DNA from: Flavobacteriales bacterium
GTDB taxonomy: Bacteria; Bacteroidota; Bacteroidia; Flavobacteriales_D; Sanyastnellaceae
NCBI GenBank assembly: GCA_002683345.1
Contig: NYSX01000068.1
Span: forward strand, 1-50,770
Direction of reading: 5' to 3'
Length of the DNA: 50,770 nucleotides
Under the pieces are notes generated by a model. That model was not told the origin of the DNA and did no database searches. It was given only the letters and a program-made list of their open reading frames with translations. Shown piece after piece: positions 1 through 8,835 of the stretch (positions are counted from its first letter, which is position 1; every line of letters begins with the position of its first letter). Made by a program: the position numbers and the translations under genes.

Positions 1-245
1 AACCATGCCTCGTCTGAATCGCCGGTGCGCCAACTGGCCACCCCGAGTAGTACATCGCCGGCCCCAAAAGCTCCCCAAGAACGTTGCTGGGTCAATCGGG
101 CGCCCCAATCGTCGTCGTCAAACGCCGCCCAAGCTTGCCGTTGTTCGCGGCTGTAGTGCGTGGCGTGCATGATGCTTTCTCGGCACAAGACCAAGGAGGC
201 CTCCATGTTCTCGTCTCGGAGGGATCGAACCTTGAGGTCACTCAC
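1..245 (-). CDS. GNAT family N-acetyltransferase (partial, cut by window start)
   Basis: This reading frame is missing from the ORF track because its end lies outside the window. Read on the minus strand it begins GTG-AGT-GAC and gives SDLKVRSLRDENMEASL, then a helix with HATHYSREQRQAWA and WGARL. That is the usual start of a GNAT acetyltransferase: a beta strand with R-x-L, an acidic loop, then the long first helix. The GTG start lies inside the last codons of the upstream permease, an 8-base overlap, so the two are probably co-translated. An ATG at 206 is an alternative but would cut off the first beta strand. The acetyl-CoA binding motif would lie beyond the window edge, so the substrate cannot be guessed. 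Confidence 0.72.
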   Translation of the reverse strand, partial: MSDLKVRSLRDENMEASLVLCRESIMHATHYSREQRQAWAAFDDDDWGARLTQQRSWGAFGAGDVLLGVASWRTGDSDEAW

Positions 246-1482
246 GGCCAAGGGCGACGATGGGGTCGAGTTTGGAGGCAAGCTGGGCGGGGTAGTAGCC
301 CGAGGCCAAACTGGTCAGAAAACACAGGATGACCCCCAAGGTCACCCATCCCCACGGGACCACGAAGGGCGTTTCGAAATAGGAGGCAATGAGGTTGCCT
401 ACCGCGAGGCCCAATCCAATCCCGACAACCCCTCCCAGTTGACCAATGACCATGACTTCCACCAGGAATTGCATGCGGATGGCCTGGCTCGACGCACCGA
501 GGCTCTTGCGTGTCCCAATTTCCCGGGTGCGCTCGCTTACGGAGATCAGCATGATGTTCATGAGGCCAATGCCCGCGCCAAGCAGGGTGATGAGGCCGAT
601 GAACACCGCGGCCAAGGTGATGCCATCGGTGGCCTCAAGCAGGGTGTCCACCAGCCGGTTGCTCTGGCGGATGCGAAAGGTGTTGGGGTCTCCCGGGGCA
701 TCGCCACGTACCATGCGCATCCATCCTGTGGCGGCATCCACCGCCTCCGGCAGGTCCTCTGCCTGGTCGACGGTGCAGGTCAAGTTGTAGCTCCTGCCTT
801 CGTCGGAGTACTGGCGACGCACGCCGAGCAAGGGCATGAGGATTTGGTTGTCTTGGGACATCCCAAACGTCGTCCCCCGCGCCTCCAACACACCGGCAAT
901 GGTGTACCGTTGCGCACCCACCAACACATGTTGTCCCACGGGATCTTCCCACGACTCAAACACGCGGTCCACCACGGACTGGCCCAAGAGCACTACGGCA
1001 TGGCCGTTGTCAATTTCGGCGGGAGTGAAGTTGCGGCCCTGCGCAATGCCAAGACCACTGACCGGCAGGTACAATTCATCCACGCCCTGCACCGTCACGT
1101 TGGGATCGGTGCGCAGGCTGCCGCGGGTGACTGTGGCTATGCTTGTGCCAAACACCGAGATGGCGACGTCAAAATCGGCCTCGGATTCGCGCTTGAACCG
1201 CATGGCTTCCCGGTAATCAATGGGCGGGCTTGGCATGGTGCGGCGGCCGTTGAACATGCCTCCGCTGCGCATTTGGTCGATGGAAAAGCTTTGGGTACCG
1301 AGCGAGGAAAACTCCTGTCTCACGTTGGCCTTCAGCGATTCGGTGGCCGTCACCATGGCAATGAGGGCCATGATGCCGATGCCAATGATTCCGATCGTCA
1401 AAGACGTGCGCAACACTTGGCCTCGGATGGACCGCAAGGCCACCGAAACCATGTCTCGCCACAACGTCGACGTGGATGCCAT
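238..1482 (-). CDS. MacB/FtsX-type ABC transporter permease
   Basis: A 414-aa inner-membrane permease of the MacB family. One transmembrane helix lies near residues 24-46 (LTIGIIGIGIMALIAMV), followed by a periplasmic MacB-type domain of about 230 residues. Three C-terminal helices follow (about 289-312, 341-364, 376-398), with the conserved cytoplasmic SERTREIGTRKSLGA loop that couples to the ATPase. Such permeases work with a MacB-like ATPase and often a membrane-fusion protein to export substrates or act on envelope components. No ATPase is encoded beside it here, so the partner must be elsewhere. It lies 26 bases downstream of acnB on the same strand and overlaps the next gene (GNAT). The substrate is unknown. 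Confidence 0.88.
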   Translation of the reverse strand: MASTSTLWRDMVSVALRSIRGQVLRTSLTIGIIGIGIMALIAMVTATESLKANVRQEFSSLGTQSFSIDQMRSGGMFNGRRTMPSPPIDYREAMRFKRESEADFDVAISVFGTSIATVTRGSLRTDPNVTVQGVDELYLPVSGLGIAQGRNFTPAEIDNGHAVVLLGQSVVDRVFESWEDPVGQHVLVGAQRYTIAGVLEARGTTFGMSQDNQILMPLLGVRRQYSDEGRSYNLTCTVDQAEDLPEAVDAATGWMRMVRGDAPGDPNTFRIRQSNRLVDTLLEATDGITLAAVFIGLITLLGAGIGLMNIMLISVSERTREIGTRKSLGASSQAIRMQFLVEVMVIGQLGGVVGIGLGLAVGNLIASYFETPFVVPWGWVTLGVILCFLTSLASGYYPAQLASKLDPIVALGRE

Positions 1483-4432: not shown

Positions 4433-5161
4433 ATGACTCCTCCCGGTGCTGTGTCTTGGATGACGGGTGAACGCCAAATGTGGCTGTTGCCCCAAAAAGC
4501 CATCTGGTGGCCGTCCCAGTCGTTGCTCATGGTGAGCGACCTGCACCTCGCCAAAGCGGAGCACTTCCGTTCCAAGGGGTTGGCCGTGCCGCCCACCGTG
4601 GATTTTCAAACCTTGGGGGTCTTGACCTCGCTCCTCAACGATCTCCGGCCCGCGCAGTTGGTGATTCTTGGGGACTTGTTTCACAGCGCACCCAATCGCG
4701 CTTGGCAAGAGTTTGCAGCATGGCTTTCCGACGAGTTTGACAACGGGCTGCAGGACGCCATTTTGGTAAGGGGCAACCACGATCGAGCCCACGACGCGAC
4801 GTACGAAGACATGGGGCTGGTGGTGGTGGATTCATGGACGAATCACGGCGTGGTGTTGACCCACGAGCCCGACGACGAAATCCCCAAGGGAACGGCCATT
4901 CACTTGTGCGGCCACATTCACCCCGCGGTGCGCCTTCGGGGTGCCGGTCGTCAGAGCGTGGTGGTGCCGTGTTTTGTCCAAACCAGCACAGGATGTGAAG
5001 CCGGATTCCGACTCACGTTGCCCGCCTTTGGGGCCTTCACAGGGACGCACCTCGTCGAGCCCAAACGCGGAGTCGAGGCGTACCTGATTTCAGAATCGAG
5101 TGTGATGGGCCCCGTTCGGGCCACGCCGCATGCCGGGTTCAGTCGGCGAGGTCGAAGGTGA
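4433..5161 (+). CDS. pdeM: PdeM-type metallophosphoesterase (ligase-associated DNA damage response endonuclease)
   Basis: A calcineurin-like phosphoesterase of about 242 aa. Metal-binding motifs occur in order: SDLHLAKAEHFR, GDLFHS, RGNHDR, LTHEP and CGHIHPAVR. The SDLHxxKAxHFRxxGLAVP signature is typical of PdeM, which often accompanies LigD-type ligase and helicase genes in a presumed DNA repair set; no such partner is adjacent here. The ORF track begins at a TTG (4415). I prefer the ATG at 4433 because a near-consensus GAAATTTG sits just upstream, but this is not certain. It is divergent from acnB, and its 3' end overlaps the convergent lipoprotein gene by 23 bases. Confidence 0.85.
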   Translation: MTPPGAVSWMTGERQMWLLPQKAIWWPSQSLLMVSDLHLAKAEHFRSKGLAVPPTVDFQTLGVLTSLLNDLRPAQLVILGDLFHSAPNRAWQEFAAWLSDEFDNGLQDAILVRGNHDRAHDATYEDMGLVVVDSWTNHGVVLTHEPDDEIPKGTAIHLCGHIHPAVRLRGAGRQSVVVPCFVQTSTGCEAGFRLTLPAFGAFTGTHLVEPKRGVEAYLISESSVMGPVRATPHAGFSRRGRR

Positions 5162-5651
5162 TTTCGCCGGTGGCGTCAATCGTGTTGTTGCCACGGGTGG
5201 CCGACACGTTGGTCATCGTCATCACGTGGGCGTCGTCACTCACGGCGATGGACAACGAGGCCCCTGACATCGTCCAATCGACACCCAGTCCAGGAGACTC
5301 CACCTGCTGAACGGTCATTGCGTCGTCACCGGCCGGGAGGTTGAGCGTGGTGTTGGCGCCGTCGAGCGAAGTGGTCAAGGTGAACACCACGTCGCGAGGT
5401 TCGTCGCGCGCTTCGATTTCGGCCAGCGTCCGGACGTCCGCCACGATGTGGTAACGGTAGGTCTCGCTGTCAAGCTGCTCCACCTCGGCCATGCGCATGC
5501 CCAAATCCCGTCCGTCCCAAACCACATACCCGCAATCGCAATCGAACGATTCCCCGTCGTACGAATCGTATTTGGTGCATCCGGAAAGCAAGGTTCCCAG
5601 CAACATCAAAGCACCGAGTGTGGCGAAGGCCGAAGGGCGTGAAAAAATCAT
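5139..5651 (-). CDS. Small lipoprotein of unknown function
   Basis: The track ORF starts upstream, but the natural start is the ATG at 5651, giving 170 aa beginning MIFSRPSAFATLGALMLLGTLLSGC. This is a lipoprotein signal peptide with lipobox LLSGC. The mature protein is acidic, with a short CDCGYVVWDG segment and then a region with regular polar and hydrophobic alternation that suggests a beta-rich fold. I do not recognise a family. It follows the NamZ fusion gene by 38 bases on the same strand and is probably its operon partner, so a cell-envelope location is likely. The last 23 bases overlap the 3' end of pdeM on the opposite strand. Confidence 0.72.
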   Translation of the reverse strand: MIFSRPSAFATLGALMLLGTLLSGCTKYDSYDGESFDCDCGYVVWDGRDLGMRMAEVEQLDSETYRYHIVADVRTLAEIEARDEPRDVVFTLTTSLDGANTTLNLPAGDDAMTVQQVESPGLGVDWTMSGASLSIAVSDDAHVMTMTNVSATRGNNTIDATGEITFDLAD

Positions 5652-5689: not shown

Positions 5690-7354
5690 TCAACGTCCGG
5701 GCAGGGGAGCGTTCCAGCGATACAAGAGGTGCGGTCGGGCGGCCTCGTAGAACGCCGCGTGCTGTTCCGCCCACGTGGCCTCCAACTCAGTCAATGGTGT
5801 CCCCGCTTCCAGGGCCAATCGCAGGGCATCCGTGCCCGCGAGTTTGTCAAAAAAGGAAGGAGAAGTGATGAACCCGTCCAACGACCCCTTTTGCGACACC
5901 CATTGCCGGGCCCACCTCTCGAGCGGTTCCAGGGTGAATCCCGGTCGGGGATGGCCATGCGCGGCCAACGATTCGATGCGCCACGTGGTGGCGAGTTGTC
6001 CCAGGTGCTGACCCAGGCATGGGGCGTTTTCGTGTTTGGGATGGGGCGCCGCCCCGGGGGTGGAGACCGGGGTGAATGCAAAGGAGCCCAGTCCCATGTT
6101 CGGATGCCCGAGGCTCTCAAAAGGGTGCTCCGTTCCTCGGCCCACGCTGACCACCGTCGGTTCAAACAGGCACAGCGACGGGTACAAGTCGATCGAGGTC
6201 GCCGAGGGGAGATTGGGGCTGGGGCGAATGGTCAATTGAAAGTTGGTGCCGTGGCTCCAACCCTGGCAGGTCACGACCCGAGGCTGCCAAGACTCGGGAA
6301 CCTCAACCCAACCTTCGGCGCACCCCATCAAAGCCGCTTCCCCTAAGGTCAAGCCGTGCACCATGGGTGTGGGGATGTAGCCCACAAACGATTTGAAGGC
6401 CGGGTCGAGCATGGGGCCCTGCATGTGATGTCCATGCGGGTTGGGGCGGTCGAGGACCACGAGCGCGATGTCGGCCTCTGCGCACGCCTCCATGACCAAC
6501 ATCAAGGAGCTGATGTACGTGTAGAAACGGGCGCCGACGTCTTGGATGTCAAACACCACGATATCAATGTCTGCAAGCTGTTCAGGCTGCGGCTTGCGGT
6601 GCTTGCCATGCAAAGAGTAGACGGGGAGCCCTGTGGCCGCATCGGTGCCGTCGAGGATGTCAGCCCCGTTCGCCGCTTCACCGCGAAACCCGTGTTCGGG
6701 GGCAAACACATGACGGATGTCGATTCCTCGGGCGATGAGGGTGTCCACGAGGTGGACGTCGCCGACCACGCTGGTGTGGTTGCCGACCACGGCGACGCGC
6801 TTGGAGTGGAGCCAAGACAGGTAGACGTCCATTTGGGCGTTGCCGAGCACGATGTCTTGGCCGTGCGCTCCGGGAATCGCCAAGCAGAGAAGAAGCAAAG
6901 CCAAGCCCAGTTCGTTCATGAGTTTGAGGATGCGCTTGGCGATGGTGGCGTCGGTTTTGGCCGAGGCGATCTGATGGATGGCGTTTCTGCGCTTGCCAGG
7001 CAGCATGGCGTCAAAACGCTGCAACAACTCCGGATCGTCGTCCAGCATCTCCTGCAAGTCGGGCGGAACGGCCATGCCGTATTTGCTGTCGTCCACGCGA
7101 AAGTCGACGTGAACCCACCCGCCAAGCGCGGTTTGGGCTTGCTTCAACTTCTCTTTGGAGACCATCACAAACCAGCGGCCGTCGCCCGTGCCCAGGAGGC
7201 CACAATGCCAGGTCACCCCGTCGTTGACCGTGATGACAAAGCGCTTGGCCCCTTGGCCTCGAATCTCGCCGGCCAGCGCCTCGGGCAAGGCGAGAAAGTG
7301 CATGTGGCCCTCGCCTTCAAAGCGTTCGATTTGTGCGGAAAAGCTCCAGTTCAT
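5690..7354 (-). CDS. In-frame fusion: DUF1905/YdeI-like protein + NamZ-type (DUF1343) exo-N-acetylmuramidase
   Basis: One uninterrupted frame of 554 aa from ATG 7354, five bases after the permease stop. Residues 1-145 are a DUF1905 domain (MNWSFSAQIER..FVITVNDGVTWH) with a YdeI/OmpD-associated tail (PPDLQEMLDDDPELLQRF..KRRNAIHQIASAK..AKRILKLM). Immediately after comes MNELGLALLLLCLAIPGAHGQ, a perfect signal peptide, then a complete DUF1343/NamZ domain (VGNHTSVV, FAPEHGFRG, DIQDVGARFYTYISSL, VLDRPNPHG). NamZ enzymes remove terminal N-acetylmuramic acid from peptidoglycan fragments. The secreted enzyme could start at the internal ATG 6919 (409 aa). Either the upstream gene has lost its stop or both are translated; an internal signal peptide would be odd in a single chain. 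Confidence 0.85.
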   Translation of the reverse strand: MNWSFSAQIERFEGEGHMHFLALPEALAGEIRGQGAKRFVITVNDGVTWHCGLLGTGDGRWFVMVSKEKLKQAQTALGGWVHVDFRVDDSKYGMAVPPDLQEMLDDDPELLQRFDAMLPGKRRNAIHQIASAKTDATIAKRILKLMNELGLALLLLCLAIPGAHGQDIVLGNAQMDVYLSWLHSKRVAVVGNHTSVVGDVHLVDTLIARGIDIRHVFAPEHGFRGEAANGADILDGTDAATGLPVYSLHGKHRKPQPEQLADIDIVVFDIQDVGARFYTYISSLMLVMEACAEADIALVVLDRPNPHGHHMQGPMLDPAFKSFVGYIPTPMVHGLTLGEAALMGCAEGWVEVPESWQPRVVTCQGWSHGTNFQLTIRPSPNLPSATSIDLYPSLCLFEPTVVSVGRGTEHPFESLGHPNMGLGSFAFTPVSTPGAAPHPKHENAPCLGQHLGQLATTWRIESLAAHGHPRPGFTLEPLERWARQWVSQKGSLDGFITSPSFFDKLAGTDALRLALEAGTPLTELEATWAEQHAAFYEAARPHLLYRWNAPLPGR

Positions 7355-7359
7355 GGCGG

Positions 7360-8835
7360 TCAGTTCATTCTCAACGTCAGGGCAGGGCGAATTCGCGTGG
7401 ACCACAGTGCGGGCAGCACCATGGCGACCACGCAGAGCCCAAAGGCCACCACCTCCATGGTCACCAATCCAGGCGCATCCACCAAGATGGGGACGGCATT
7501 GACGTAGTACGCTGCGGGGTCCAGGGGCACAACTTTCCACGTGGCTTGGACCCACACGAGGCCCAATCCCACGAGGTTGCCCCAGGCGAATCCTTGACCC
7601 AAAATGCGCGCCGCGTGCCACAAGAACGCCTGGACCACGGCACCGTCACTCATGCCGAGGGCCTTGAGCAAGCCCACTTGGCTGCGTCGTTCCAAGATGA
7701 TGATGAGCAACGCACTGGTCATGTTGATGATGGAGATCAGAACCATCAAGCCCACAATCACATCCACATTCAAATCGAGCATGCCCAGCCAGCTGAACAT
7801 CTCCGGGTGCTGTTGGTCCACGCGCGCCGCCTGCCAATGGTAGGGGATGTGCTGGAACAGCTGCTCCTGAAGCCGGGGCATGTCGTCGAGGTTTTGGGCC
7901 CAAACGTCGTATCCGTCCACGACCTTGTGGTGGGTTCCTTCGGAGATGTTGGCCACCCATCCGTCCTCGCCATGGGACAAACGCACGGTGTCGGTCAAGG
8001 CGCCGGTGCCCACCAGCCAGAGGGGTTCTGCGTCGAGCGGCATGTTTTGCAGTGAAAGGGTCCGACGCCCTTGCCCGGCAACACCTTCGGGAAGCTGGTC
8101 CCATCGGCCGGTCCATGCGGCACCCCGCTCGTCACGGCCAAAGGCTTGTCCAACCGCCCGCACGCCGGTAGGGGTGGGTTCCAAGGTGATTTGGCCTTCT
8201 GCGCCTCGCCGGGCAGCGTCTTGAAGCACCCGGGCCGGAATCCACACGTGCCGTTGGTCAAACTCGAGCAGGCCCGTTTCGTAAATGCCGCACACCCGCA
8301 TGGGGCGGGGCCGAATGTCGTCGGGCCCCACCACCACATAGAGGGTCAGCCGGGATGCGGTGTCCAATTCCAGTTTTTGGGCCAGCGGTGCGCCAATCAA
8401 CACCTCCTTGGTGCTGCCCTCTGCAGGCAGCTGACCTCGAAGAAGACCTGTGGTGATGCGGGTCACTTGGGAGGTGGAGTCCAACCCGCGGATGACCACC
8501 CCTTGCAACGCCTCGGTGGTTTCCACCATGCCTGCCCGCTCGTGGCGCAAGGCGACGTGGGCCACATCTTCGACCTGAAGGAGGGTGTCGAGCATGCCCG
8601 CGCTCCACACGAGTCCCCGTGCACCGGGGTCGCTGGGCGCGACCTGGACGTGGCTGTCGAAGCCGACCACCAGGCTTTTGACTTCATGTTGGAAGCCCTG
8701 CACGACGGCAGAGGCCAAAATCATCAAGGCCACCCCCAACGTGACGCCCGAAGTGGCGATGCGCACCACCGGCCGGGAGTTCAATTCCCGGTTGCTGCGC
8801 GCCATGCGCTTGGCGATCAACCTTTCCACGTTCAC
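7360..8835 (-). CDS. LolC/LolE-type ABC transporter permease
   Basis: A 491-aa permease of the lipoprotein-releasing family. The N-terminus carries the LolC/E signature, IAKRMARSN..PVVRIATSGVTLGVALMILASAVVQGFQHEV, covering the first membrane helix (about 27-49). A large periplasmic domain and three C-terminal helices follow (one reads VDVIVGLMVLISIINMTSALLIIILERRSQVGLLKALGM). With a LolD ATPase this family moves lipoproteins from the inner membrane toward the outer membrane; no ATPase gene is present here. The start is a GTG (8835) with TACCTTTC six bases upstream. The DUF1905-NamZ gene follows by five bases. Whether it is a true Lol component or a relative cannot be settled from sequence alone. 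Confidence 0.87.
   Translation of the reverse strand: MNVERLIAKRMARSNRELNSRPVVRIATSGVTLGVALMILASAVVQGFQHEVKSLVVGFDSHVQVAPSDPGARGLVWSAGMLDTLLQVEDVAHVALRHERAGMVETTEALQGVVIRGLDSTSQVTRITTGLLRGQLPAEGSTKEVLIGAPLAQKLELDTASRLTLYVVVGPDDIRPRPMRVCGIYETGLLEFDQRHVWIPARVLQDAARRGAEGQITLEPTPTGVRAVGQAFGRDERGAAWTGRWDQLPEGVAGQGRRTLSLQNMPLDAEPLWLVGTGALTDTVRLSHGEDGWVANISEGTHHKVVDGYDVWAQNLDDMPRLQEQLFQHIPYHWQAARVDQQHPEMFSWLGMLDLNVDVIVGLMVLISIINMTSALLIIILERRSQVGLLKALGMSDGAVVQAFLWHAARILGQGFAWGNLVGLGLVWVQATWKVVPLDPAAYYVNAVPILVDAPGLVTMEVVAFGLCVVAMVLPALWSTRIRPALTLRMN

Follow-up and report, generated by a model that had tools for sequence, protein, structure and literature searches.

A DUF1905-OmdA protein joined in frame to NamZ through a predicted internal signal peptide in a genus of the Flavobacteriales

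A stretch of 50,770 nucleotides from an uncultured Flavobacteriales bacterium (contig NYSX01000068.1), which we refer to as the window, contains a reading frame in which a DUF1905-OmdA protein (the "head") runs into a NamZ-type peptidoglycan enzyme through a signal-like hydrophobic segment. To our knowledge, bacterial genes with a complete non-exported protein ahead of a cleavable internal signal are unusual, and the locus raises the questions of whether the two proteins are made as one chain and whether that chain remains whole at the membrane. Sequence evidence at this locus also allows a judgement on the usual first guess for such an arrangement, a lost stop codon with translation from two starts. 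As argued below, the join is real and kept by selection, and the chain is most likely cut apart at the membrane.

Composition and surroundings of the fused gene

Translation of the fused gene gives a single open frame with no internal stops, in which DUF1905, OmdA, a hydrophobic signal, NamZ_N and NamZ_C follow one another (Pfam; Table 1). All four Pfam matches exceed their curated cut-offs; a search of NCBIfam with the fused protein returned no match. The initial annotation had described one frame joining a DUF1905/YdeI-type protein to NamZ, with a signal-like hydrophobic stretch at the OmdA/NamZ join, and was right on both counts and in its coordinates. The hydrophobic stretch reads LGLALLLLCLAI and is followed by PGAHG/Q; the full linker from OmdA to NamZ is LGLALLLLCLAIPGAHG/Q, and the predicted mature NamZ would begin at Q166, as pyroglutamate, and continue with DIVLGNAQMDVYLSWLHSK.

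Table 1. Features of the fused gene and its neighbours in the window
Feature	Residues	Positions	Strand	Basis or remark
FtsX/MacB-like ABC permease, upstream gene		7360..8835	-	Pfam FtsX and MacB_PCD
Fused gene	554 aa + stop	5690..7354	-	ORF, translation
DUF1905 domain	5-83	7106..7342	-	Pfam E 3.6e-9; fold like PDB 2D9R
OmdA domain	95-149	6908..7072	-	Pfam E 1.9e-14
OmdA C-terminal helix AKRILKLM	139-146	6917..6940	-	would give the basic n-region
M146, the ATG named by the initial annotation	146	6919-6917	-	within the OmdA C-terminal helix
Internal signal: h-region L149-I160 and c-region PGAHG	to 165	6860..6910	-	sequence
Predicted signal peptidase I site AHG/Q	G165/Q166	6857..6862	-	sequence; Bacteroidetes Q-rule, PMC5837995
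Predicted mature NamZ	166-554	5693..6859	-	Pfam; PDB 4jja
NamZ_N	187-385			Pfam
NamZ_C	390-545			Pfam
Lipoprotein-like gene LSGCTKYDSYDGESFDCDCG, downstream of the fused gene		5142-5651	-	no Pfam family

We regard the assignment of the second half to NamZ as firm on the basis of sequence and fold. NamZ_N scores 244.2 bits (cut-off 26.9) and NamZ_C 79 bits (cut-off 25) in Pfam, the best match by both sequence and fold is PDB 4jja (E 1.3e-90 by sequence, TM 0.93 on the target), and the PEHGFRG block aligns with that structure. We take the family to be Pfam PF07075/PF20732, with structures 4JJA and 4K05. It is an exo-beta-N-acetylmuramidase family (Mueller et al. 2021, J Biol Chem 296:100519, as cited in PMC10936207), and exo-lytic activity is predicted for the fused gene. 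Unfused NamZ relatives have both NamZ domains, as the fused gene does, but those inspected carry an N-terminal signal of their own and no upstream DUF1905-OmdA. The fused gene of G001 ends in a NamZ C-terminal tail rich in Asp, Pro, Glu and Ser (KADPESDPESNPKPDPAQD; L007:3208-3294) that is found in none of the other fused genes.

The barrel of the head matches 2d9r in a fold search (E 7.3e-4, TM 0.72 on the target); when PDB sequences were searched with a profile of the head, 2d9r came up only at E 0.72. 2D9R is a protein of unknown function, and our search of the literature found neither an established function for DUF1905-OmdA proteins nor an experiment on a protein of this architecture, the link to "bacteriocin-protection" and OmpD being a Pfam name only. 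Stand-alone DUF1905-OmdA (YdeI-like) proteins, exemplified by that of G098 (L100) and by tandem copies in G001 and G008, have the same two domains in the same order with the same C-terminal helix and are 48-57% identical to the fused head; they stop a few residues past the helix, whereas the fused gene continues into the signal. The tandem copies (G001, L085:1731-2213; G008, L086:1526-2008) are second, stand-alone DUF1905-OmdA genes lying between the permease and the fused gene, and are 48-49% identical to the window's head.

The permease stop codon lies 5 bases before the ATG of the head in the window, and the two abutting signals overlap as ATGA in G004, G009 and G002, a junction that would fit operon-coupled translation beginning at the head. 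On the other side, the small lipoprotein-like gene adjoins NamZ in most genomes of the genus and at two outgroup loci (35-38% identity).

The fusion point and the internal signal

The signal was initially described as beginning at the ATG where the secreted enzyme normally starts, that is, at M146, a residue that instead belongs to OmdA and has its counterpart in stand-alone relatives. The latter stop just past the same helix, with the endings AKRIAALMNELKLT in G001, AKRIAALMDELNMT in G008 and AKRIMKLMEFLGV in G098 (57% identity, from another genus), each followed directly by a stop codon; their C-termini read LMNELKLT, LMDELNMT and LMEFLGV, with LM at the place of M146. Since these proteins end right after the helix, M146 is to be read as a native OmdA residue within the last helix and not as NamZ's own start, with the join a few residues beyond it. 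The charge of the adjoining residues points the same way. A hypothetical signal starting at M146 would read MNEL, MQEL or MTDL; in each of the eight sequences compared (the six intact fusions of the genus together with G005 and G002, in which the head carries a deletion), its n-region would lack Lys and Arg altogether and carry a net charge of -1. An acidic start of this kind occurs in none of the 54 unfused NamZ genes in which a Met and a hydrophobic core could be identified, by a simple hydrophobicity rule and not a trained predictor: two of them have an n-region with a net charge of 0, and in the other 52 it is +1 or more. NamZ's own n-region is gone from the fused genes, and the OmdA helix, with K140, R141 and K144 in the window, takes its place.

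The same observations bear on the possibility that two overlapping products are made, the head from the long frame and NamZ mainly from M146 (position 6919), as the remnant of a lost stop. The codon for M146 is ATG in 8/8 sequences and NamZ persists where the head is deleted or absent (G002, G003, G007), both of which would be expected under such a scheme. We nevertheless consider it unlikely, in view of a Met that is native to OmdA, with LM at that place in close stand-alone relatives, and of the acidic n-region that the short form would carry. Codon conservation just upstream of M146 is unexceptional (0.647, versus 0.552 in the remaining head, a level reached in 25 of 133 head windows) and offers no clear hint of an internal start. 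Moreover, making the head always makes the fused chain too: the OmdA match extends to residue 149 and no stop follows, which forces any ribosome that completes the head on into NamZ. Some internal initiation may occur at M146, and it can coexist with a processed precursor.

All the parts of a signal peptide are present at the join, namely the basic n-region (K140, R141, K144), a short h-region of ~12 residues and a cleavage motif. Signal peptidase I of Bacteroidetes usually exposes a glutamine (the Q-rule; PMC5837995), and putative sites of this type are found in six of the eight sequences (AHG/Q in G000 and G005, THA/Q in G010, AHA/Q in G004, AQA/Q in G009 and TQA/Q in G002), while in the remaining two, G008 and G001, the lipobox LSG/C replaces the Q-rule site. 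That a motif of the same kind should persist while the peptidase it addresses has changed is difficult to account for if NamZ is not actually cut free, and it is this that favours a processed precursor.

A membrane-tethered fusion had been put forward in the initial annotation; the fusion stands, and a permanent tether fares poorly. In a stable tether the hydrophobic stretch would act as a signal anchor that is never cut, holding a periplasmic NamZ and a cytoplasmic head together in one protein that might tie turnover of the wall to sensing in the cytoplasm. Its attractions are a single frame under selection in six genomes, basic residues ahead of the hydrophobic stretch that match an N-in topology, and an AlphaFold model in which one continuous helix (residues 126-157; 119-135 at low confidence) is predicted to span the join. 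The layout resembles that of the CadC/ToxR one-pass regulators, which have an N-terminal cytoplasmic domain of ~150 residues, one hydrophobic segment and a periplasmic domain, but the fused gene has no winged-helix domain, and a cleavage site comes after its short hydrophobic segment. Twelve or so residues are few for an anchor, and a Q+1 or lipobox site is found in 8/8 sequences even though the signal segment evolves fast, with whole-codon indels. The short h-region and the retention of the site in every lineage argue for cleavage, and a lasting tether seems to us distinctly improbable.

Occurrence of the fusion and selection on its halves

The intact four-domain fusion is found in 6/11 genomes of the genus (G000, G010, G004, G009, G008 and G001), four of them on public contigs whose source isolates or bins bear different names; the five other proteins are 67-74% identical to that of the window. 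The fusion in G006 is cut by a contig end within the head. NamZ directly follows the permease, with the head absent, in G003 and G007, where the interval between the permease stop and the NamZ start gave only short chance nucleotide matches to the head. G005 and G002 have deletions within the head, joined at short matches; one keeps the frame and lies at a contig edge, the other disrupts the frame, and NamZ and the signal are retained in both. Head and NamZ as adjacent genes split by a stop, which had been envisaged near position 6915, were found in none of the 11 genomes. With the frame common to six genomes and no genome having the two as separate neighbours, the proposal that a sequencing or assembly error had removed a stop was rejected as unsupported, and its counterpart, a genuine in-frame fusion, is supported.

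Beyond the genus, in a search of 395 Bacteroidia genomes, NamZ is unfused at every one of the first 150 or so places listed, and a rare fusion elsewhere in the class may exist; six places whose match had a long N-terminal part or contained a stop were inspected individually, and no DUF1905-OmdA head is present at any of them. In a four-gene concatenated tree G003 stands beside G000 and G005 (SH-aLRT 99-100, bootstrap 73-75), a position that suggests that G003 lost its head; the position of G007 is not settled in this tree, and a NamZ-only tree did not separate the relationships within the genus. The simplest reading of these data would be one gain of the fusion followed by two or more losses.

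Damage to DUF1905-OmdA coding sequences was also noted as such. Three separate internal deletions, in L037 (G002), L032:7-120 (G005) and the stand-alone L113:1489-1755 (G108), each leave early and late parts of the head and might represent erosion or assembler collapse. A DUF1905-OmdA frame in G013 (L107:83-469) matches over residues 100-149 only (70%) and is probably frameshifted.

Both halves of the fusion are, as judged from Nei-Gojobori dN/dS values computed separately for head and NamZ over pairs within the genus, under purifying selection. The two least diverged pairs give 0.060 (G004-G009) and 0.064 (G008-G001) for the head, the remaining pairs give about 0.09-0.26 with synonymous sites near saturation, and the values for NamZ are 0.06-0.23. 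A neutral read-through fusion or assembly artefact with a functionless head, to which heads missing or damaged in 4/11 genomes might seem to point, is very hard to credit when the same frame recurs in six genomes, the head dN/dS is well below 1 and no DUF1905 other than the fused head was found in G000 or in G004. That several members of the genus have lost the head marks it as accessory to NamZ and not essential for it.

A possible route from one chain to two proteins

Based on these results, we think it probable that the gene specifies one precursor, which signal peptidase would cut into an exported NamZ and a cytoplasmic head. The fused gene would be translated as one chain whose DUF1905-OmdA portion folds in the cytoplasm, and the last OmdA helix would serve a second purpose, its K140, R141 and K144 providing the positively charged n-region of an internal Sec signal by which NamZ crosses the inner membrane. 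Cleavage at the conserved site would follow, by signal peptidase I or, in the G001/G008 lineage, by lipoprotein signal peptidase, and NamZ would be freed to the periplasm or outer membrane, where it might trim MurNAc from peptidoglycan fragments, while the head would stay on the cytoplasmic side with a short hydrophobic tail. The single modelled helix across the join is also in keeping with this route. Against it stands the dispensability of the head in the genus: with the head deleted or absent in G002, G005, G003 and G007, the fusion is not needed for NamZ export in those genomes.

There are known precedents for such processing. The Bradyrhizobium cytochrome b/c1 protein FbcH is a polyprotein split by signal peptidase at an internal signal. 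According to PMC5402940, the same is true of core-E1 of hepatitis C virus. Both share with the fused gene the order of a non-exported domain, an internal signal and an exported domain that cleavage at the signal releases; they are unrelated to it as proteins, and cleavage in the present case is predicted from motifs.

As to what the head contributes, our guess is a small-ligand or regulatory role in step with expression of the operon, and not an activity on peptidoglycan. A more speculative thought, to which we attach little weight, is that cleavage yields a membrane-tailed head fragment (or, if export stalls, an uncleaved sensor) that would report the state of export to the cytoplasm, with one gene coupling the regulator 1:1 to NamZ export.

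Signal-peptide predictors that consider only the N-terminus would probably misplace the fused NamZ in the cytoplasm. Through the fusion, a DUF1905-OmdA protein is genetically tied to peptidoglycan recycling, within an operon that also includes an ABC permease, and this offers a testable lead on the DUF1905-OmdA family.
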